In this document: piece after piece, positions 27,281 to 64,000 of the stretch | Numbering within the stretch: position 1 is the stretch's first letter | Layout: the number at the start of each line of letters is the position of its first letter | Source: Pseudisothecium myosuroides | Taxonomy: Eukaryota; Streptophyta; Bryopsida; Hypnales; Lembophyllaceae | Assembly (NCBI GenBank): GCA_951799445.1 | Contig: CATOGU010000239.1 | Span: 1-64,000, forward strand | Direction: 5' to 3' | Length of the DNA stretch: 64,000 bases | Made by a program: the position numbers and the translations under genes | Notes under the pieces: generated by a model | Databases searched by the model: none | What the model was told of the DNA's origin: nothing | The model's input: only the letters and a program-made list of their open reading frames with translations

Positions 27281-28371
27281 TGCAATTTAAGTTAGTTTTT
27301 CTTGATTTCTTTAGTTTCTTGCAAACTTATGTATATTTAGGATTTAGAAAAGATCCATTGCTTGGAAGGCACAATGGATTTTTGCTAGGCACCCATAGAA
27401 CGAGAATCAAACCTAAAACTCAAGAGCCTGGTTGTGCTCACTTATTTACCAAGGGTGGGTAAATAAGTGCTCACACTACTTTATCATTTTGAAAAATTTG
27501 AAAAAATTCAGGTAAAATCTTTTTTAATAGGAAAAGGTGCACTCTAAATTTCAAATTCATTTCATAATTTATGTAATATTTCTACATGCAATGTGGGATA
27601 CAAAATAGGACAGGTATTTTTTGCAATCACACAAGTGTAGGACCATTTTTGCATATTTTCCATGCCTATTTCTATCCTATCTGTAGCATTATTTTCAATC
27701 ATGTAGAAAGACTATCTATCTTAGTTGTACAACATTGATGTCATAGATGGTCTATTATACTAGTATAAGACTTTAGCCATAATACAACAATTATTATTTA
27801 TAGACTTTAATTTGGCCTAGAACTAGTAAAGTATATGTAAAATATGCATCCTTTGAAATAATAATTTCATTTGTTGTTTTGTGCATTGTCTTGTAGTTCA
27901 AAGTTTAAAGTTAATTTTAGCTATTACAAAGTAATTCATTTATAATCATGAAGCCGTAATTTGTGACTATTTTGGCAACTAAAGGAAAAAGAACAACAAA
28001 AGGATATACCAATAATACAGTTTTTTTTTTGTTAATCTTTTGATGCAATGGAAAACCATTGCATTAAAAAGACTTTACAAAACATTAGCTAAGTCCAGAG
28101 ATTGGAAATGAAGAGATAACAAGCAAAATGAGGTTGCCAACAAAAAAGAGACCCAAAAAATGAACAAATCCCTTCAAATTCCACATACTGTAATCACCAA
28201 ATCTAGTGGCCAAGCCTAGTAAGGGAGTGAATTCAAATATTATTGAATTTAGACTAGTTGTCGTCTGTACAAGCTATTCATAAATGCCATGTTCCTTGTG
28301 AGTACTACTCCTCTAAGTCTTTGTCATTTCGAAGTATTTACGTACAAAATGAGCAAATAAATGGCATTTGA
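27281..28371. other. No gene recognised
   Basis: AT-rich sequence including a near-palindrome acttatttaccaaggg / tgggtaaataagt at about 27438-27470. Downstream flank of the helicase pseudogene. Confidence 0.4.
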
Positions 28372-31300
28372 TCAATACTCTACATTTGGATTTGTCAACC
28401 ACTCCGCAAATTTATAATCATTGATGTATTGAGAGCAACCTAACCTCTTCAAAATTTCTCTGAATCTCTCTGAATTTCTCCAAAAGTACCAACATGCTGG
28501 TACCATCTTATCATGCCCAATAGATTTTTAACCTGGGCCAAAACGTTCAGGGTGCATCACTTGCTGCCCAAGTGTATTGGGCAAGCCGCAGCCAAAGCAT
28601 TGGTTGGCCTTCCATTGCAACCAATTTGGACAGTTTGAAGACCCATGCCCTTGGGCCAAACACTTGAAACAAAGATTTCGAACATATGGGCATTGTGATA
28701 TAGAATGGTACCCACCAAATTGTTGATTTATAGTGCAGAGAATGCACTTATCTTTAGCTCCCTTCAAGAATTGAACTAAATCCAATAAATTGAGCATCAG
28801 GCTTCCATATTGATCTTCATGTGCTGTTGTAGACAATAATGCATTACCAAGGCAAATTTTTTTGGTAGGTACCTCCTCTAGCATTGCAAATGCATCATCA
28901 TCCATGTCAACAAACAAATCTATATCGTCACAATAAAAGTTGTCTGTAGAAAGAGCTGGTCCGGTGGTTGTATTGGTGGATTGAATGTGCATGGCAATAG
29001 ATTGACAAACGTCACATTTTTCAGATCCCAAAGAAAAGCAATCAAATCCACAACCATCTATATATTCTTGAAGTACCCAACGCCTGCACTTCAACCCACT
29101 TATCAATTCCACAAGCTTGGTACATGTCTCTTCATGTGGTTGCCATCGTATTGGCAATAAGATGATATGTTTGCTAGGCAATCCGTCACGGTCTCCACGA
29201 CCACTTTCTTGTGCAAGATCAATCATTGAATAAGGCTCATCCATATGAATAATAAGTCGAACTGTATCAATATCAATGCCTGCACCAAATGCCCCTGTTG
29301 CAACCATAATGTCTACATTACCATTCATCCACAAGTCTTGAGCCTCATTTCTAGACTTTTCATCTAATTGTCCATGGTAATAGACAGCAGTCATGCCTTG
29401 GGAACAAAGGAGTTCTGCAAGTATTTTTGTTTGTTCCCGTCCTCTGCTGAAGATGATGGATTTAGGAGTAGTGGGTCCTAAATCCAATAGAAGCCTTATC
29501 AAAGTATCTTCCAAAGGGCCCTGATTCTTGATGACTTGGTAAATAATTTTGGGACGACTAGTGGGACTTTGAACAACGGATAGATGGGAATTGAAAAACT
29601 GCTTGAGTGAATTTTCCATATTAGGTGGTATAGTCGCTGATAGGAAAAGCAATGGGACAGGTACTTTTTGAATGTACTTCAAATCATGTATGGCTGGTCT
29701 TCATGAACAGGATGTAAGTGCCAAATGACACTCATTCACAACAATCCTTCTAAGACGCTGTTCTTTATATAAATATCCAAGATGATTTTGAAAGGCTTGA
29801 GATAAACAATGCTCCATTGAGACCAATAGAATGTCAACTATACTAGTAGCCAATGATTCTGAATATACTTGTATTGAAATCCTGGCATTTTATAAGCGAC
29901 GTAGCATATCTTTCTTCAATGTCACAAGAGGACATATGACAACAGTGGTATAGCAACCACTTTCAACTAGTGATGGCAAGAGAAACAATAGTGTCTTGCC
30001 TCCACCTATTGGTAAGACAACCAATAGATCTTCTTGCTGTTCCAAAATCCAATGTATTGCTTGTGCTTAATATGGGCTCTTGAACTTGTTGTATCCTAAT
30101 GAAAGCAAACCACGTAATACCAATTCTGAACAAGCCAAAGATGGGAAGTCCATACCAATGTTCCCAAAGAAACGGACTACTTTAATTTCGTGAAGATGGT
30201 GATGGTGGACATCACTAGTTGTAGGGAAAATCATTGCACCACCCTCCTTTTCATGCGGTGAAGCTTAATCTGAAGGAAGACTATCAGAAACAAGATGTAA
30301 AAGTTGATGCCATTCAACAGATGCCAGTCGATAGAATTGGAACTCATCTCGTCCAATACCTGGATGGTCAAAATTAGAGCGACCATAAATCGTACTTGCT
30401 GTTTGTTGGGAGTGCCTTGCTTGGCTATCCAAAGGTCCATCACGTGTAAATTCCAAAACATTGCTATACTTCAAAAATCTATCTGCCAAACCAATAGCCA
30501 TGTGTCGCCACGATTTGAGAGGTTGTGCAACTTTCAAATGAGTCAGAAATATTCTTGAGATTCCTTCAGATAAATCACGACCGGAAAAAGCTTGTCCTTC
30601 CTTCATAGCTAATAATAGACCGTACAAGGTGGTTTGACCTCTTTGTATAAAACCTTGGAAGCAACTTTCTCCATCTTCCAAACATATGTAAGATAGTTAA
30701 TCAATAAAAAAGAGGCATCTTTACATAGAATTCAAGCAATAGGCCTTTATGTCCCACAAAGATTATCTGCTTTTCCATAAAGAGAGAGGAGCATCACAAG
30801 ACCATCTACAAAATACACACCCCAAAGTTGAGTAGGGGTGTTGCGGATTGCAGAAGATAGAAATTCAACACCACGTCCTGGTTGTCCTGCAATGAGATGC
30901 ACAATGGACAAAAAAATTTGCAACCATTTTCCATCTTTATGCATCCAACTACTCAATGCCCCTTGGTTCCAAATAATCTTACTACCAGCATCTTCAATGC
31001 AAACAATAAAGTGACAACGTAATGTAGCATTAGTGACAATGTGATGAATAAGTCCAAGGGTGTAACTAGAACAGTGGTTATTCTCATTCCAAATGAACCA
31101 ATACCCAACTCTATTTTCTCGGAGATTGTCTTCTATTCTACTTCCAGCTTTACTTTGGAGTATCCTATCTTTGTTCAAATGATACTCATGCATATCAAAA
31201 AGTAAGTCTCTTTTCAACTCCCTGTATAACTCTTTGATTGACTCACAAATCATATTTGATATGCCTTGGATATCCACATAAACACCATCAACAATTTGTC

Positions 31301-33102
31301 CATCTCCGGCCCACACCACATTTGGAAGGATCATCTCATTCTTTGTAACTTTAAGAATCAGCCTTTTTGCATCCAATATTGCAGCAAAAGGTGTTCGATA
31401 GCCTTCTTGAATAAAGAACAAGAAAGATTCTTCAACTTGGTTTGTACCATCTATTGCTAGGTTTGAAGTGTAGACAATCTTATAGAGGACAAGAGAACAG
31501 CACCAATACATCAACCTAGAAATGCGCTGAGTTACCTCATTTGTTGTTATCACATGGTGATGTTGTATTGCTGTAAAAACAACAAACCGATATATAAGTA
31601 AAGAGGTCTCAAGAACAAGGTGAGATGGCCGTTGAATAAAAAAAGATCCTCTAGAACCTGTATGCAATGAGACTTGGACAAGCCAATGTGTTCATTGGTA
31701 AACAGCCCATCTTCATCTTCCATATGCAATCCATTCCAAAGGCTTTGTAGAGATTGTTGTAGTGGTTCATCAAGTGGAACCAAGATAGAAAGTATATCAT
31801 CTTCATCATCATTGTTGTTGTCACTATCAAGAGACTTGAGTAGCAAATTGATGAGGTGCACCAATGTTACTACATAATCTTCAGAAGACTGTTCCAATCG
31901 TGAAAAACAATCTGTAGAGGTGTCTATAGCCTTTGTAGATTTGACCTTTTTCCTCAATAGGGGTTTTGCTATATTATTGTTGTATTGAAAGTCGGACATC
32001 AAAGATCTACAAACTTCACGCAATCGGTTGGGAAAGAAACGGGCATCTCCTTGTCTTGGTGCTGATATCAAAGCAGCCATTGTACCAATATCTTGACCCA
32101 AATTTTGTATAAATTGATCCCAATTGAGCCTTTTGATGAACAAAGGTAATTGTCTGGATTCATCAAATGATGCCACTTGAGCCTCCTTCTGGCGTTCTTC
32201 GGCTTCTCTTCTAATTACATCAATAAGAGAACCATGGGCAATGTTTCCAATAGGTTGGCTTACTCCAAACCAACTATTATTCCCAGGAGAGCAAAATAAA
32301 CATTGCACAAAGCAAGCTTTGTGGCTACCTTGGATAGAGCAATTAGACTCATGAATAATGCGAAGGTCAGCTTTCAAGGTGGACAATTTTCTACAATAAA
32401 AGATACAGAACTTCATCCAAATCCATCCACTACTTCGAGACCTTCGATGGGATCCTTCAAGGCAAAAGTACCAATTCTATATTGAGCAAGATGACCAATG
32501 CCCGGATTGAGTTGAAACTTGTTAATATCTGTCGACAACCGTTCCAAATCTACCTTATGTCCATGTCTAGCTGCATGCTGGACAATACTTCCAACCTCAA
32601 CCACATATTTGCAAGGTCGACAAATGGCTATGGAAAGGTGCTTATTCACAAAGAACTCCAACTTTGATTCAATATACGACTCCTGGTCATTTCTTATAGA
32701 GATGAATGGCTCGATGGGAACAAATACCTGAGAGGTGGGTCCTTCAGAAGGGGTCATAAAATCTGCTTCTCTGCAAGTTTTACAATGTTTTTGCATTTTT
32801 CCTAAGTATTTGCTTTCAAATTTCATGCAACGTGGGCATTTGAATAGTTGTGTGTCTGGTCGACGCAAAGTGGCCTTCTCTTGTAGTCCATAGCCATCCA
32901 ATGGAAATGTCACATTGCACATTGGAGTATGGATTCTTGCGTGATTTGTCAACTGGTCCTTTGTATTGAATGCGGGACAGTCACATTTTGTGCATTGGTA
33001 AGGCATTGTTGAGCTCATTGTTGAAGATGAGGTAAGTGATTGAGCTGTAATCTCCTGCGTTGATACAAAAAAATATGTTTTTAACTTTTCCTTGATATGC
33101 AA
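28372..33102 (-). pseudogene. OrsD-type zinc-finger / RecQ-like helicase gene, decayed
   Basis: One ancestral gene can be followed along the minus strand. At 33102-32413 it carries C2H2 fingers (YQCTKCDCPAFNTKDQL..H..IH; FKCPRCMKF..H..C) and an OrsD/DUF3505-like finger (ICRPCKYVVEVGSIVQHAAR). At 32416-30747 there is a central region with HLIAGQPGRGVEFL, and at 30681-30265 a segment with KSWRHMAIGLADRFL. At 30200-28372 lies a RecQ-type helicase: Walker A PIGGGKT, box II as VNECH, SATIPP, then a helicase C domain with YYHGQLD, ATGAFGAGIDID and QESGRGDRDG. A CCHC knuckle (CFKCLAQGHGSSNC) and a C-terminal HDKMVPACWYFW segment follow, with a final TGA at 28374-28372. Lesions: in-frame stops at 30069-30067 (TAA), 29892-29890 (TAA), 29703-29701 (TGA), one TAA after GPG near 28530, two more near 30745-30730, a frameshift within 31550-31667, and Asp to Asn in box II. 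The order matches giant OrsD-RecQ proteins known mainly from fungi. Confidence 0.8.
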
Positions 33103-36100
33103 AGCAAGACATATAGAACAAGGAAAAAAAGAGACAACCCTAAATAAGAAGTTAATAAAAGGATGGAGTAAAATAAATTAGAAATATCCAATCAAGGAAT
33201 ATAAAATATTATTAATATATTATGAATTTAATGCTAGTCACAAATAATATAGTTCATTGTATCCACTTGTAGAGCAACAATTTGATAAGTGGATTGGATC
33301 TGAAAGAACAAGCTAGTTAAACAAAGGACCCAAACCCTAAATACAAAAACAACAACATTCTGAGCAGAAGCAATGGAAGTAAAGAGTACCAAATGAAGAC
33401 AACTGTAACTCAATGAAATGAAAAGTTGTATAGTAACTTAGACATCACAACATTTCTATAACCTATGAATTTATATGGAGGAATCTTAGAGTCCTTTAAA
33501 TTATCAAAAGGTAAAATGAAATTGATAAGAAAAGGGAAGTAGCAAGTGTACCAAGCTGGAAAATTTGGTTTATGCATCTATGGATACAATTCAATGATAT
33601 TGAAAATTCATATAATGGAAGAAATGAAAGCATATTACTTACGACAACATGAAATATACAACTATAAGTATATTAGAGTCTAGATGAAAAGTCTGATTTC
33701 ATGAGTCAAAAATGCATACCTGATCATGAACTTCCAAAAAAATGTGCATTATTTGCTTGATCCACCTTCTTCATCTTACAACACTTTAGTACAACCAACA
33801 CTCTAGACTATTTCTTCCGTTGATATACATCACAAAAAATTGATGAATAGGATCCTTGTGATCATTGAAGACTGTGGACAAGTCTTGGATGATCAATACC
33901 TTGGCATCCTTCAACATACTATTTGGAGAAGTGAGTATTGTAGCAAACTAAGTTCCTACCTAGACGCAAAAGTCTCTAATCAACCAAAATTGGTAGTGAA
34001 AATAAGCTGGAACAACAAAGTAGACCTCCTTGATTCCATTGTCAATGACCAGCGATAGAGTGTTCTATTCATTTTAAACGTACAACACCACTTTTATTAA
34101 AGAGTTTAGTCAAAATGTCGGCTAGGTTTTTATTAACTTGGTTTTGGTTGGATTTTCTTGAAATATTGACACAAGATATAAATGTGTAATTCCTTGATTA
34201 GTGATAATTAGTGATATTTTTCCATTTGGTATCCAAATCAAAAATTAGCTCCTTTGAATTTTTTGGGTAGCATGTCAATAAATATAACTATGTGTAGTTT
34301 AAAAATCTCACTCTAGAAAGAAAAGAAATTTGTTGAATGAGGTTTGAGAGAATTTTTTTTTGCAATAACTAAAAACATTACAAATTTTCAGTCCGTGCAT
34401 TCAAAGTTTTGAATTTTTATCCACAAATTTCCACACAAGTGTAGTACATATTTGTATGGTTGAATTTTGAAAGAAAAAAACAAGCAACTTTCCTTTTGCA
34501 TTTTCTTCTTCCAACTTTGAAAAGGGATAGTTGAACAATGTTTGTCCAAAATGTGCCTGAGTCGTTCAAGGGTTAATGGTGCCAAAATTCTATTTTAAGA
34601 AGAAGTTCAACAACTAGGATTAATGAATGCATTATACAATCTTCAAGAGAACAATGGATTGAAATGGCTATGGAACATAACTTCAATACCATATGGTGTA
34701 TCTTGATCAATCTTGTTCTACAATATGACTATAGAAGTTGGCTTTTGTTCAATCTTATTCCACAACAATCAATGGAGGTTCATAAAAGCAACCGTTAGTT
34801 TTCTTCTTGTATTTTTTAATGCAATGATCACCATCCTTTAATTTAAAAAAGCAACCATTAGTCATGGTAAATTACTTCCATTTAGTTCATTTAATGCATT
34901 ACCATCACCTATACAAATTTGTCATTCTTTGTGAAATGATGAGAGGATAAATAGCCAAATCACAACCACCAAATTGAATAAGTAGCCAAGTCATAATGAA
35001 TGTCACTAAAAACTATGGACCAAAATGCGGTCTGGAGTTTGTGCGGTCTGGAGTTGATGGAGGCAAAAATCATTGAAAATCATTGAATTGAATATCATTG
35101 AATATCATTGAATATAATATAATTGAATGTAATTGAATAGCATTGGACACCGATGTCAATTGATTAAATTCTTAAACAACCCACCCTCCTAATCAGTTGG
35201 ACCAATTTCAAAGATAAATAAAGCTCATGGCTGCAAATTTTGGGAGCCAGGCGGTTTTCATCCTTCACCTCAATGGGATTCAATCTGGCCCTTATGAATT
35301 TCAATCTGCCCATTCTTGGCTTCCCAATGGGATATCAGGCTTCAATTTTTTGACTGAACAGAGTCGGCCTATGTTGCTTTTGCATAGACGTGTTCCAGCT
35401 CATGCAGTTAGTATAACCTGCATACGGATACTTTTCTAATAACTTACTAAAGATTTATTTAGCTAGAGTGGACAAGTTCATTTATGAACTTACGCACAAA
35501 AAAGTGGAATTGCTTCTAGTATTTCAAATTTAGAAATTGGAATTGAGTACTCGTTCATTATACTTAAGGGATTTTGAACTAGTTTGTAAATTAGTTACTA
35601 ATTAATTCGGAAAGTAGGGGTGTTCACCCTAAAATCCATAGATTTAGTTTTATTACTATATATTTCAAGTAATTCCACTACAATTTCAACTACACCATTA
35701 TACTTATTTGTTTTCTTAGAACTTGATTTGTTATGTACTTGAATTATTTTTTATAAATTTCCAATTCATGTACATGGGAAACTTTGAATTATTTCATTTA
35801 CATTAGCGCTTTCAAAGTTAAAATGGATAATCCTCTTCAATTAGCAATATTAGTACAAGGATGAAATTTTGATTGCCCCATAACGATTGGTCTCCTCTAC
35901 ATGAACTAATATAAAAAGAGCCATGCATGGTTGATTAGACGTCATGATTTTTCGCAAAACTAGTGAGCACAACTAATTGTATTTGACAGTATGGCAAAAA
36001 TTTCATGAATTTGTTTAAATTTCATACTCAGTTACCAAAAATGAAATAAAATAGTGTATACAAATATTGTAGGACTGAACTGCTTATTTGAAAGACCAAG

Positions 36101-57108: not shown

Positions 57109-59985
57109 TCAAGACGAAGCATTCAAAGCCAAACTCTGCCAAATGACTTCAATTTGAGCAGCAGGAATCTTCATCGTACAATCTGCAGTATCCTTTTGGA
57201 TCCTAGACTTCCACGCTGTCATAATAGCATCCGTGTGCTGCCAAACTGGCGGTTCATCTTCATCAACCTTCCAACGAAGACCTCTTTCGGTGTCCCATCC
57301 AGTGTAGAAGTCTTGAACATCCTGATCTCTTGATGTTGGACGGAAGTATTGAATGAACACGCAATTTGGATTCTGTGGATCTACAAAAGGATCAGTCAAC
57401 GCCCTTGCAATCCAAACTGGATGCAAATCATTGTCCGCGGGAGTAACCGCAACAAAATAGTCTTTGAAGAGATCTCGACCCACCCTAAAGGACGGTTGTG
57501 GGCGACCACGTAATGGCCCCACATACGCGTCATCCTCCCCAAATTCTTCACGGTCCTCGCCATCTTCATCTAACTGATCCACCAGAGTCGCTTCAACACG
57601 AGTAGTTGGCCCTAAACCATCCTTCAAAACAGTACTTTCAAGTATTGGTTCTTGCAACTCTGTCTTCACATCACGCCAGTAGTGCACCACATGCTCGTAG
57701 CGCCTTCGGCATTCCCCAGTCACGTCCGCATTGCACAAGTTCTCCCAGTACTTCATAAATCCAGATACACCTTTCACAATGTCTTCCTCGCCTTTCATTG
57801 CCTTCAACGGAATTGGCGAAGGTGCACCTCGCGGCCACAAACTTTGCCCTTCAGCATCTTCTTTCCACAATTTAAGGCCTCTACCGTCTCCCCCCAACCA
57901 ATCTACATCGGTGCACAACAATTTGTACTTCATGACTGGGCATCCCGTTGAATCTAGGTAGAACTTCACTTGTTGAGGCCTTGTATGCCCAACGAGGGTG
58001 TCTGCACCGTCTACTATTGCATCTGCAATGAAACCCTTGAAGTCGGGCACCTCCTCTACAAGGTGAGGGATAGTGGGAACGGATTCAACATCCATGAATG
58101 ACTTCATAAGAGCAGGAACTGTAGGGAAGTTCTCTTTCTTCAATTGCATACTCCATCTCCCAAACAGTGCATCAATGTCGTTGTGCGTATGACCAACAAT
58201 CATGATGTTCATGTATACTTCACGAAAGATCTTGTTTGCAACAAGTAGAGACCAAAAACAGAAAACATATCTATTCTTGTTGTCCCCAGTAGCATTGTCC
58301 ATCTGCACATTAAGAATGGGTGGCAATGGTGTTGCTGGAACTAATGTAATCGGCGGCGGCGGAAGTGACGCCTCACACATGTCTGCGCCCTTAAGAACTG
58401 CCTTAAACAAATTTGTCGACCTCGATCCCGCAAACAACTCTCGAGAAGACGACTTTGGTGGCAATTCTAGATCTCGCAGCAACTTTGCCACTGAACCAAT
58501 GGTGTAGTTCGAATCGTGTGGAAAGAGATCCAAACCATAATGCGCATACCGCACGTCAGCATGACCATGAGCAATCATGCCAGTGACAGACACGGGCAAC
58601 TTTGTAAGGCCGTCAGTGTCTTTGCTCTTATGGAAAAAGACTGGACATGCGGTTTTTGAATGATCCATCTTGTCATGCATGATCGTAAGACACTCGTGCG
58701 GAGAGGTATGCGATCGGTAGCGGTTCGCATAATACAACTCCCGGTGAACGCGAGCTATAGCGAGATGTTTATCCAATTGCTGCGTCCACATCATACAATC
58801 GTTGGAACCCGCAAGAGCAGCCTTCCTAAGCTCTTGAAATCTATCACATTTAGCGCAACGAGCAAAATTGTCTCCTGGCTTCTTGACCTCATACTCTGGG
58901 AGCCTAGAAGATCTGCTCTTGCTTAAATTTGAAGTTGACACTTCCGGCAATCCAAAGGCAGCATTGGCATCATTGATTTCCTTTATCTTTCCCTTCCACT
59001 GAAAGGTAGAGGGAAGACACATAGACACCACCTTCTCCCCTGACTTCATAGTACGGGTTCGATGAGGCATGTGATCGGCCTCCTTATCAAGGAGGCACTT
59101 CAACGTAGCAGTAGCTTGTTCGGTGTGCTTCCTGGGCTTCAGCAATCTCGTATTACCATGGTCTGTTGCTTCTCGATGACCCTTCATGTATGTTTGATAG
59201 CGAAAGAATGTAGACTCTGGGACCCCGGAAATATGCATCCATGCTCGCATGCACACAGGAATCGCTTCAACCGTCACCATCTTCCTTCCGTGAGAGTCAT
59301 GATGAATTTGTCTGTGAACATCAGTCTTCATGAAGGCTCTGTGCTTGAACGTGGAATTATGATACATGCGCTCCCGATAGGCCCGAATCTTCTCCCTCGG
59401 AAAAGGTTGCACACAATTTCTTACACAGCATACTTTACTCGACACCGCGTTAATGGACTGTTGAGTAAGCAGAGCTTTAGATTTCAATGAAGTCTCCCGT
59501 GGCGGGTTTCTCATGGTACTCGCATACGGTCGGGAAGAAGTCAAGGATGGTGGGTTCAAAAGAGCCGCTTGAAGAATGTTGAACTTATCCCGGGCCTCAT
59601 GGTCATGAAGGCTTGCACCACGACAATGGACTAGATGAATAGGCCAAGCTCTCAAAGAGTAAATCTGCTCACGAGAAATGTCCACTTCAGAAAGTGTTTT
59701 TGAAATGTGCACTGCTACATGCGCATCACCAAGGGGACCGTTGGCACCGAGCACCAGATCCGAGTTCACGCTATGACAAGTACCCTCCCCAACCAGCTTC
59801 CCCTCGTCGTTGTAAAGAGTTACGCACATAGTGTTCCAGAGTCTCCGAGGAAGTCCTTCGCACTCTGGAATGTCTTCAATCATTTCCTGAGGAACAAAGA
59901 TCTCTTCCTCTGATTCCTCCATACGGTCAACCAGATTATCAATTGAAGTCATGTCACCTAGACTGCAAAAGTTACAACCGAACAA
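57109..59985 (-). CDS. Transposase-like protein with DUF7869-type core, 958 aa, intact
   Basis: A single uninterrupted frame ends TGA at 57111-57109. Residues about 45-120 (LVGEGTCHSVNSDLVLG, PLGDAHVAVHI, SLRAWPIHLVHC) resemble the DUF8039-type N-terminal module of plant transposon proteins. Residues about 190-340 are basic with Cys pairs (CCVRNCVQPF). A CAKCDRFQELR motif with downstream His resembles a zinc-binding site. The core has VQMDNATGDNKNRYVFCFWS and IVGHTHNDIDALFGRWS. The D-N-x-x-x-D-N-K-N and G-H-T-H-[NE]-D-[IV]-D motifs are the diagnostic core of DUF7869 proteins and probably supply acidic catalytic residues of an RNase-H-like fold. The C-terminal part is acidic with Trp-rich ends. 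It is the only long intact mobile-element ORF in the window. A foldback palindrome lies 30 bp upstream. Whether it is an active transposase or a domesticated gene cannot be decided here. Confidence 0.75.
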   Translation of the reverse strand: MFGCNFCSLGDMTSIDNLVDRMEESEEEIFVPQEMIEDIPECEGLPRRLWNTMCVTLYNDEGKLVGEGTCHSVNSDLVLGANGPLGDAHVAVHISKTLSEVDISREQIYSLRAWPIHLVHCRGASLHDHEARDKFNILQAALLNPPSLTSSRPYASTMRNPPRETSLKSKALLTQQSINAVSSKVCCVRNCVQPFPREKIRAYRERMYHNSTFKHRAFMKTDVHRQIHHDSHGRKMVTVEAIPVCMRAWMHISGVPESTFFRYQTYMKGHREATDHGNTRLLKPRKHTEQATATLKCLLDKEADHMPHRTRTMKSGEKVVSMCLPSTFQWKGKIKEINDANAAFGLPEVSTSNLSKSRSSRLPEYEVKKPGDNFARCAKCDRFQELRKAALAGSNDCMMWTQQLDKHLAIARVHRELYYANRYRSHTSPHECLTIMHDKMDHSKTACPVFFHKSKDTDGLTKLPVSVTGMIAHGHADVRYAHYGLDLFPHDSNYTIGSVAKLLRDLELPPKSSSRELFAGSRSTNLFKAVLKGADMCEASLPPPPITLVPATPLPPILNVQMDNATGDNKNRYVFCFWSLLVANKIFREVYMNIMIVGHTHNDIDALFGRWSMQLKKENFPTVPALMKSFMDVESVPTIPHLVEEVPDFKGFIADAIVDGADTLVGHTRPQQVKFYLDSTGCPVMKYKLLCTDVDWLGGDGRGLKLWKEDAEGQSLWPRGAPSPIPLKAMKGEEDIVKGVSGFMKYWENLCNADVTGECRRRYEHVVHYWRDVKTELQEPILESTVLKDGLGPTTRVEATLVDQLDEDGEDREEFGEDDAYVGPLRGRPQPSFRVGRDLFKDYFVAVTPADNDLHPVWIARALTDPFVDPQNPNCVFIQYFRPTSRDQDVQDFYTGWDTERGLRWKVDEDEPPVWQHTDAIMTAWKSRIQKDTADCTMKIPAAQIEVIWQSLALNASS

Positions 59986-60015
59986 TAAGAGCTACTTCAA
60001 ATATAAGAGGGCCCA

Positions 60016-60478
60016 GGAACTTGATTATATCCTCAGTCGAAAAGACAATATTAAGGGTAAAGGAGCTCACCCTGCAATTTATGTCGGCTACAATTCAATT
60101 GCAATTCAGCTCGACTCGATCTGAATTGCAATTCTCCTTTGGTCGAGCTGACCTTAGGGTTATGCTTATGTTTGGCACGAGCTCCGCTGCAATTCAGCGC
60201 TAGTCGAGCTGAAGTGCAACTACTGTCAGCTCAAGTCTGGCAATTCAGTATTGTTGGACTTGAGCTGAAAGAAATTGCAATTCAGCCGACTAGAGCTGAA
60301 CTGCAGCAGAGCTCTTGACGAACATAAGCATAACCGTAAGGTCAGCTCGACCAAAGGAGAATTGCAATTCAAATCGAGTCGAGCTGAATTGCAATTGAAT
60401 TGTAGCCGACATAAATTGCAGGGTGAGCTCCTTTACCCTTAATATTATTTTTTCAACTGAGGATATAATCAAATTCCT
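60016..60478. mobile_element. Foldback element: 463-bp palindrome with roughly 225-bp arms
   Basis: The left arm, from GAACTTGATTATATCCTCAG through CTGCAATTTATGTCGGCTAC and TCCTTTGGTCGAGCTGACCT, returns inverted on the right, with a centre near 60245. The arms differ at few positions. The arms are themselves rich in GAGCTGAATTGCAA. The same motif continues to about 60570. ORFs on opposite strands (59943-60203 plus and 60290-60535 minus) encode nearly the same peptide, which is the palindrome showing itself. Confidence 0.9.
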
Positions 60479-61599: not shown

Positions 61600-61715
61600 T
61601 ACAGGGTTTAAGAGGTTTCAGGTTCAAGGTTTCAGGGTTCAGGGTTTAAGGTTCGGATTTAGGGTTTAGGGTTGGGGTTTGGGTGTATGGGGGTTTTGGG
61701 GTTCTGAGGTTTTAG
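61600..61715. repeat. Degenerate telomere-type repeat (TTTAGGG)n
   Basis: Runs of gggtttaag, ggtttcagggttcagggttt and ggatttagggtttagggttg, then G-rich variants. TTTAGGG is the plant telomere unit. The degeneracy indicates an interstitial or subtelomeric relic, not a functional end. Confidence 0.75.
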
Positions 61716-61739
61716 TTTAAAGCCCATTATCAATGAACC

Positions 61740-64000
61740 CCTTCGTGAATTTTAGGAAAAATTGAATACACCCGCCCTTACAGTACTTTAATGACAACCC
61801 ATTTCAAATGGCATGGAATTTGTACGTAGAGTGTTTAGCAAAAAAATGTACAACTTCCAAACATTCTCAAGATTTAAAACCCACAAGAAATTTGAATTAA
61901 ATTGAAATTCTAATGAAACCCTACGTAGTTTTTAAAAAATATAGAATTAACTCGCCCCTGTACTTTAATGACCTTGCGTTTTAAATGTCATGCAATTTGT
62001 ACGTGAAGGGTTCACCAAAAAAATGTACAAGTTGCAAACATTGTGAAGATTCAAAACCCACAAGAAATTTGAATTCAAAACCATTTTTAATGAAATCCTA
62101 CGTGGGTTTTTTAAAAACATAGAATAAAACCGACCCTATACTTTAATAACCTTGAATTTTAAATATCATAGAATTTGTACATGAAGGGTTCACCAAAAAA
62201 ATGTACAAGTTGCAAACATTGTAAAGATTCAAAACCCACAAGAAATTTGAATTAAAAACCATTTTCAATGAAATCCTACGTGGGTTTTTAAAAATACAAA
62301 GTAAACCCGGCCCTATACTCTAATGACCTTGCATTTTAAATGTCATAGAATTAGTACGTGAAGGGTTCACCAAAAAAATGTACAAGTTGCAAACATTTTC
62401 AAGATTCAAAACCCACAAGAAATTTGAATTAAAAACCTTTTTTAATGAATTCCTACGTGGGTTTTTAAAAATACAAAGTAAACCCGGCCCTGTACTCTAA
62501 TGACCTTGCATTTTAAATGTCATAGAATTTGTACGTGAAGGGTTCACCAAAAAAATGTACAAGTTGCAAACATTTTCAAGATTCAAAACCCACAAGAAAT
62601 TTGAATTCAAAACCATTTCTAATGAAACCTATGTGGGTTTTTTAAAAACATAGAATATACCCGACCCTGTACTTTAATGACCTTGCATTTTAAATGTCAT
62701 GCAATTTGTACGTGAAGGGTTCACCAAAAAAATGTACAAGTTGCAAACATTGTGAAGATTCAAAACCCACAAGAAATTTGAATTCAAAACCATTTCTAAT
62801 GAAACCTATGTGGGTTTTTTAAAAACATAGAATATACCCGACCCTGTACTTTAATGACCTTGCATTTTAAATGTCATGCAATTTGTACATGAAGGGTTCA
62901 CCAAAAAAATGTACAAGTTGCAAACATTGTGAAGATTCAAAACCCACAAGAAATTTGAATTCAAAACCATTTCTAATGAAGCCTATGTGGGTTTTAAAAA
63001 ATATAGAATTAACTCGCCCCTGTACTTTAATGACCTTCCATTTCACATGTCATGGAATTTGTACGTGAAGGGTTCACCAAAAAAATGTACAAGTTGCAAA
63101 CATTGTGAAGATTCAAAACCCACAAGAAATTTGAATTAAAAACCATTTTTAATGAAATCCTACGTGGGTTTTTTAAAAATATAAGATTTTAAAAATATAA
63201 GATTTGGAAATTTGAATTCAAAACCATTTCTAATGAAACCTACGTGGGTTTTAAAAAATATAGAAAGTAAACCTGGCCCTGTACTTTAATGACCTTGCAT
63301 TTTAAATGTCATAGAATTTGTACGTGAAGGGTTCACCAAAAAAATGTACAAGTTGCAAACATTTTCAAGATTCAAAACCCACAAGAAATTTGAATTCAAA
63401 ACCATTTCTAATGAATCCTACGTGGATTTTTTAAGAACATAGAATATACCTGACCCTGTACTTTGATGACCTTGTATTTCAAATGTCATGCAATTTGTAC
63501 TTGAAGGGTTCACCAAAAAAATGTACAAGTTGCAGACATTCAGAATTTAGAAAAAATTGGAACTTAAACTTTAATTACCTTGAATTTCAAAAATCATGGA
63601 TTTTGCACGTAAAAGCCTCACCAAAGCAATTGTGGAAGTTGCAAATTCTCTCAAGATTCAAAATCCACAAGAAATTCGAATTTAAACTCATTTTTAACTA
63701 ATTCATACGTCAATTTAAAAAAATATATAATTAATAAGTTATATGCTTCAATGATCTTGAATTGCAGAAGTCAATAAAAAGAGACTATAAAAACATTATG
63801 GAATTTCATACGTGCATGCATAAATTATTATTGAAGAAGTTGTAATTACTCTTAGAACTTAGATTCCACCACTACTTCCAAGTCTTATCCATTGAAAAAT
63901 TCATCTTCACATGAAATAAAAAAAATCGGGAATGAAATGCATTCTGCCATTGAATGGGCCCATTTTAAAAATGTCATGGAGTTTCATACGTGCATGCATA
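61740..64000. repeat. 177-bp satellite array, about 12-13 monomers, continuing past the right edge
   Basis: GGGTTCACCAAAAAAATGTA or its variant recurs with the TTCACC word at 62011, 62189, 62366, 62543, 62720, 62897 and 63073, i.e. every 176-178 bp. After a local 82-bp insertion or duplication it returns at 63332 and 63509. A diverged monomer precedes them (61834). Diverged monomers after 63600 keep the same period (ttcatacgtgcatgcata at 63805 and 63983). The monomer length is close to that of nucleosome-sized plant centromeric and subtelomeric satellites. ORFs inside (62871, 63483) are repeat-derived. Confidence 0.93.

Follow-up and report, generated by a model that had tools for sequence, protein, structure and literature searches.

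Telomere-linked helicase (TLH) genes, among them Ustilago UTASa/UTASb, fission yeast tlh and Magnaporthe TLH, are repeated RecQ-like genes near telomeres; they have been studied in fungi, where the question has been whether they benefit the host or act selfishly. For Ustilago, the part of PMC10532341 that treats these genes describes telomere-linked RecQ-like helicases and places an OrsD domain in the neighbour UTASb; OrsD (PF12013) was formerly DUF3505, according to the passage on it in PMC4469406. Here we describe a related arrangement in the plant Pseudisothecium myosuroides, found in a stretch of 64,000 nucleotides (contig CATOGU010000239.1, positions 1 to 64,000), called the window below and corresponding to C217:1-64000 of the 388-Mb, 222-contig genome that was searched. 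We propose, with a probability of about 70%, that the window holds a decayed copy of the transposase-like recombinase-helicase of a subtelomeric selfish element, intact members of which are about 1567 amino acids long. Like the TLH genes, the family has a RecQ-like helicase domain and repeated copies close to telomeres; it differs from them in its host, with plant-like TTTAGGG repeats, and in the putative tyrosine recombinase recognised between OrsD and the helicase. The likeness to TLHs rests on location and on the kinds of domain, whereas kinship in sequence was found only with fungal-type OrsD-RecQ proteins, no named TLH sequence being among the matches. Searches of open-licence papers turned up no mention of a recombinase in this family and no report of the family in plants.

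Several mobile elements also share features with the family. Cryptons, in the portion of PMC3212892 that describes them, have a tyrosine recombinase and no terminal inverted repeats but carry no helicase; here a helicase is fused to the putative recombinase, neither an inverted repeat nor a short direct repeat was recognised at the block ends in the two contexts compared, and the His of the HxxR motif is missing. According to the relevant passages of PMC9587614 and PMC3627910, KolobokH of fungi and Academ carry a RecQ helicase within a mobile element. They use a DDE transposase, unlike the recombinase proposed here. A Pfam search of the intact type-A and type-B proteins themselves (described below) gave no transposase match at E <= 0.1. 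Starship captains, the tyrosine recombinases of giant fungal elements, resemble the family as eukaryotic tyrosine recombinases in large DNA elements; however, no captain-type match occurred among the Pfam families shown, and the recombinase here is fused to a RecQ helicase.

The window copy and its intact sisters

The original prediction, made from the letters of the window, had described a single giant gene at 28372..33102. The motifs that it named (C2H2, OrsD, the central block, the RecQ helicase, the CCHC knuckle and CWYFW) were all found on the minus strand in the order given, with matches far beyond chance. The gene, however, is a pseudogene in four pieces, with three frameshifts and nine internal in-frame stops over 1570 codons; position 28372 proved to be one of the internal stops, whereas the gene ends naturally at a tenth stop, 28326, with homology extending to 28309. 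The features are as follows, all on the minus strand.

27476..35027, minus: putative mobile unit, a 7552-bp block with sharp ends; 93-94% identity to type-A copies, flanks differ
28326..33018, minus: broken gene (pseudogene), ~1560 codons; frameshifts near 32407, 31643 and 30640; nine internal stops
32929..32994, minus: N-terminal C2H2 finger, by motif; Pfam zf-C2H2 weak, E 0.034
32419..32655, minus: OrsD (PF12013) zinc-finger domain, first part, ahead of the first frameshift; Pfam E 1e-5
32611-32622, minus: OrsD CRPC motif
30373..30950, minus: putative tyrosine recombinase catalytic region, approximate bounds, by motifs and the fold of a homologue
30861-30887, minus: recombinase box I, GQPGRGVEF, by motif
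30765-30779, minus: recombinase Lys, by motif
30496-30513, minus: recombinase Arg-His, SWRHMA, by motif
30403-30420, minus: recombinase His, by motif
30373-30387, minus: recombinase Tyr, by motif
30196..30207, minus: histidine-rich linker from recombinase to helicase, by motif and alignment with relatives
29056..30099, minus: RecQ-type helicase region, by Pfam and motifs; relatives match a solved RecQ at E 3e-41
29992-30006, minus: Walker A GGGKT, by motif
29725-29736, minus: NECH (DECH in relatives), by motif
29182-29211, minus: helicase motif VI, by motif
28630..28671, minus: CCHC zinc knuckle, C-x2-C-x4-H-x4-C, by motif; kept in relatives
28480..28494, minus: CWYFW near the C-terminus, by motif; PACW invariant in the relatives' alignment

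Searched in its separate frames, the window copy matched Pfam Helicase_C (E 1.3e-17) and OrsD, the latter at 26.4 bits, just under the cut-off of 26.6; OrsD in the intact sisters scored 43.0 and 41.4 bits (E 6.9e-11 and 2.2e-10). The window copy retains 317 of the 367 columns identical across the four related proteins P0001-P0004. Five of its nine internal stops lie at sites where relatives mainly have Gln, Arg or Trp, whose codons are one transition from a stop, a pattern that would fit decay of methylated cytosines. The window copy is probably the decayed pseudogene of a plant telomere-linked recombinase-helicase.

Repeated copies, which the original prediction had proposed looking for, do occur in this genome, where the helicase piece gave at least 63 matches. 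The window type occupies seven full-length places including the window, 99-100% identical. Type A occupies 19 full-length places at 92-93%, 11 of them with a 1620-codon open frame free of internal stops, and type B occupies 15 at 64-66%, eight with a 1575-codon frame. In the DNA that was fetched, intact frames were present at 8 of 10 type-A loci (1567 amino acids) and at all five type-B loci (1566 amino acids), and the eight intact type-A genes are 99.45-99.91% identical to each other. Intact A and B proteins have OrsD, DEAD and Helicase_C above the Pfam cut-off, and the motif strings searched for are kept in both, with one exception per type. Types A and B share 66% protein identity, with a ratio of nonsynonymous to synonymous divergence (dN/dS) of 0.21 at a dS of 1.02, which is near saturation; their divergence is under purifying selection. 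Between the window copy and type A, dN/dS was 0.32 and dS 0.11.

The central block, the helicase and their relatives

The GQPGRGVEFL central block and the SWRHMAI string that the original prediction listed are indeed present; what it overlooked is that the central block is probably a tyrosine recombinase. The assignment is based on the model of a fungal-type homologue, P0028, rather than of a plant protein, in which a tyrosine recombinase catalytic-domain fold was found, and on the motifs. With lambda Int as the yardstick, Arg I, Lys, Arg II and Tyr occurred in order, with nine residues from box III to the Tyr, in 126 of 126 rows (Lys in 124 of 126). Several results argue the other way: the His of HxxR occurs in 0 of 6 plant-type rows and in 26 of the 120 fungal-type ones; where plant-type proteins have His in box III, 118 of the 120 fungal-type rows have Arg; the catalytic Tyr of the good model, that of P0028, sits in a stretch with a predicted local distance difference test score (pLDDT) below 50, and the plant-first structure model was poor (mean pLDDT 43.5); Foldseek alone gave no match at E <= 0.001; and there was no Pfam recombinase match among the families shown. 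A search of PDB sequences with the central region as query yielded one chance match only. The activity predicted from these residues would be strand cleavage through the Tyr.

When the central region was used as query, four proteins, P0001-P0004, were obtained; compared with the window copy, read through and joined, they are 69, 57, 54 and 47% identical; P0003 (1672 amino acids) and P0004 (1650 amino acids) are intact, and each has OrsD, DEAD and Helicase_C. P0005 (429-kb contig; 20 member sequences), P0006 (675-kb contig; 9 member sequences) and the fungal-type P0007 came from a profile search; P0007 as a query gave 176 matches, 120 of them listed. Among those 120 the central boxes were counted in 118, Walker A in 105 and the boxes before Walker A in 104. 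The OrsD-helicase order is common to the fungal-type proteins (104 of the 120 listed, by motif), in agreement with the fungal architecture that the original prediction had described. The fungal-type proteins (Cryomyces, Aureobasidium, Hortaea and others) share the domain order and recombinase boxes of this family but differ in the box III residue, in clade and in sequence, plant-type proteins being about 25-32% identical to them (24-25% to P0007, over a long alignment); plant-type relatives stand at 47-81%. A helicase tree of 29 rows, built without six RecQ-UvrD rows and without five of the 24 fungal-type ones, placed plant-type (5 rows, 99/98), fungal-type (19 rows, 100/99) and bacterial (5 rows, 100/100) sequences in separate groups.

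The helicase of the relatives is closest to bacterial RecQ and human RecQ5 structures, and its best-scoring family was RecQ TIGR00614 (E 5.7e-41 for P0003 and 6.1e-44 for P0004, both below cut-off). Such a result would be expected if this were a standard cellular RECQ gene of the plant, or a pseudogene derived from one; however, no RQC or HRDC match appeared for P0001-P0004 or for the intact A and B proteins, and OrsD, the putative recombinase and the knuckles share one intact frame, a combination that rules out an ordinary plant RECQ gene and leaves this explanation with practically no probability. Cellular RECQs do not all carry both RQC and HRDC. Two outcomes that had been named in advance as damaging to the original prediction did not arise: the best matches, lacking RQC and HRDC, were not ordinary plant RECQ genes, and the finger frame and the helicase do occur together elsewhere, joined in P0003 and P0004. 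A recent horizontal transfer from a fungus, the entry that it had envisaged, would account for the domain order shared with fungal-type proteins and for the organism-named matches (14 among the 120 listed of 176), which were all from ascomycete fungi of the class Dothideomycetes; but the separate, well-supported groups in the tree, the low identity and the 47-81% identity of plant-type relatives, which suggests a long history of their own, make it very improbable. Recent transfer from the sampled fungi, a narrow set, is not supported; an ancient fungal transfer may have occurred. Scans of viral and prokaryote contigs, with two short patterns each, gave 28 and 19 pattern matches, none of which was confirmed.

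Chromosome ends and the 7552-bp block

The 11 large contigs (380.5 Mb) contain 34 full-length A and B matches, and 31 of these lay no farther than 1 Mb from an end, at 17 of the 22 ends, compared with 5.8% expected if they were uniformly spread; the copies are non-independent, many being recent duplicates, and binomial values overstate the effect. The comparison with telomere-linked loci made in the original prediction is borne out by this clustering. Copies facing their own end numbered 28 of 31, and at 16 of the 17 ends every copy did so. Arrays of TTTAGGG, a repeat typical of plants, were present in the last 200 bases of six of the 22 ends; five of these six hold copies, eight in total, and all eight face the array, the nearest from 13.4 kb away. 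Intact copies reside in large repeated blocks beside chromosome ends, oriented towards the telomere, and their transcription would run towards it as well. Near a contig end, at C11:16757011-16890155, five type-B copies share one orientation and are spaced ~30 to 43 kb apart. Although on different chromosomes, the type-B genes L021, at the left end of C8, and L022-L023, at the right end of C11, are at least 99.9% identical, a likeness that recent exchange between ends would produce. Window-type places on the large contigs (n=4) comprised one on C10 at 320 kb that faces the end, one on C6 at 748 kb that does not, and two on C7 at 11 Mb.

All 10 fetched type-A loci matched the block that contains the gene over one and the same interval, similarity stopping exactly at 27476 and 35027. 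Junction letters agreed for six type-A and four window-type left ends and for the right ends shown, and among further type-A copies for eight of nine left and nine of nine right ends. Sharp ends in two contexts suggest that the block is an element whose own recombinase would have moved it. Of the shared termini that the original prediction had proposed looking for, the same sharp ends were found across type-A loci, but not terminal repeats: no inverted repeat, target duplication or direct repeat was recognised at the block ends in the two contexts compared, and none of the repeats around the gene formed an obvious terminal pair. The lack of inverted repeats and target duplications is expected of tyrosine-recombinase elements, as stated in the relevant part of PMC3627910. 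An imperfect palindrome at 27433-27475, with 18-bp arms and a 7-bp centre, lies directly outside one block end and is shaped like a tyrosine recombinase site; it is absent from that junction in type-A copies.

The proposal that the window copy derives from a subtelomeric selfish element starts from the observed domain order, conservation, selection, end location and orientation. The C2H2 and OrsD fingers would bind DNA and find element ends or subtelomeric sites; the recombinase, with its accompanying helical region, would cut and rejoin DNA through its tyrosine; the helicase would open DNA or drive branch migration; and these activities would together serve movement. Exchange between chromosome ends would spread and homogenise the copies, and the window copy would be an old unit that decayed after it had inserted into a different context or been brought there. 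Some observations sit less easily with this proposal. Every checked type-A copy lies in the same flanking sequence, as block duplication would give, and the two contexts, both of which have multiplied within larger blocks, are evidence of one transfer event only. Four of the 22 contig ends read N and 12 have no telomere array; the three A and B copies found in the last 1 Mb at the right end of C6 all point inwards, which may reflect an inversion or assembly error; and three C1 copies lie megabases from an end (two at 3.79 Mb, one at 47.2 Mb).

Two other explanations must be weighed against these data. The gene might ride as a passenger in subtelomeric blocks spread by ordinary end-to-end recombination, its own enzymes uninvolved; this would account for the fact that 10 of 10 fetched type-A loci have more than the 7.55-kb block in common, for the 99.9% identity of B copies on C8 and C11, and for the B array on C11 with its ~30-kb steps. 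Selection on the protein, the presence of two diverged types that are both at chromosome ends, and the finding of the sharp-ended block in a second context are not what such a passenger would show, and we consider it unlikely. Alternatively, a host gene for telomere upkeep, kept by the plant because its helicase-recombinase aids the recombinational repair of chromosome ends, would be expected to show purifying selection between A and B (dN/dS 0.21) and the end location and orientation of the copies; moreover, in the section of PMC10532341 on Ustilago maydis, telomere-linked RecQ-like genes are up-regulated without telomerase and a role in telomere maintenance is proposed. Selfish elements show purifying selection too, however, the copy number is high with many copies broken, and a recombinase domain with a conserved tyrosine fits mobility better; we therefore doubt that host upkeep is the explanation.

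A recombinase domain within this family would supply a concrete, testable biochemical activity, and the intact, conserved, end-facing copies with TTTAGGG telomeres extend the phenomenon past fungi and provide an independent system for asking how repeated genes reach chromosome ends. We suggest tentatively, at odds slightly short of even, that fungal TLHs and this plant family form one ancient, so far unrecognised class of RecQ-carrying tyrosine-recombinase transposons that settle at chromosome ends, facing the telomere; if true, the long-known TLH genes would be transposases of telomere-seeking elements.

Other features of the window

An Rfam scan gave no match, and ten further frames of the window compared with Pfam gave none above cut-off. 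On the minus strand, 57109-59991 holds an intact 960-amino-acid frame with a DUF7869 domain (E 4.5e-42), possibly a transposase-like gene; just upstream of it, at 60015-60478, is a 465-bp near-palindrome with a 91% inverted self-match. At 61603-63540, degenerate AGGGTTT repeats give way to about 8 to 10 copies of a 177-bp satellite; together they may represent an old telomere or satellite array.
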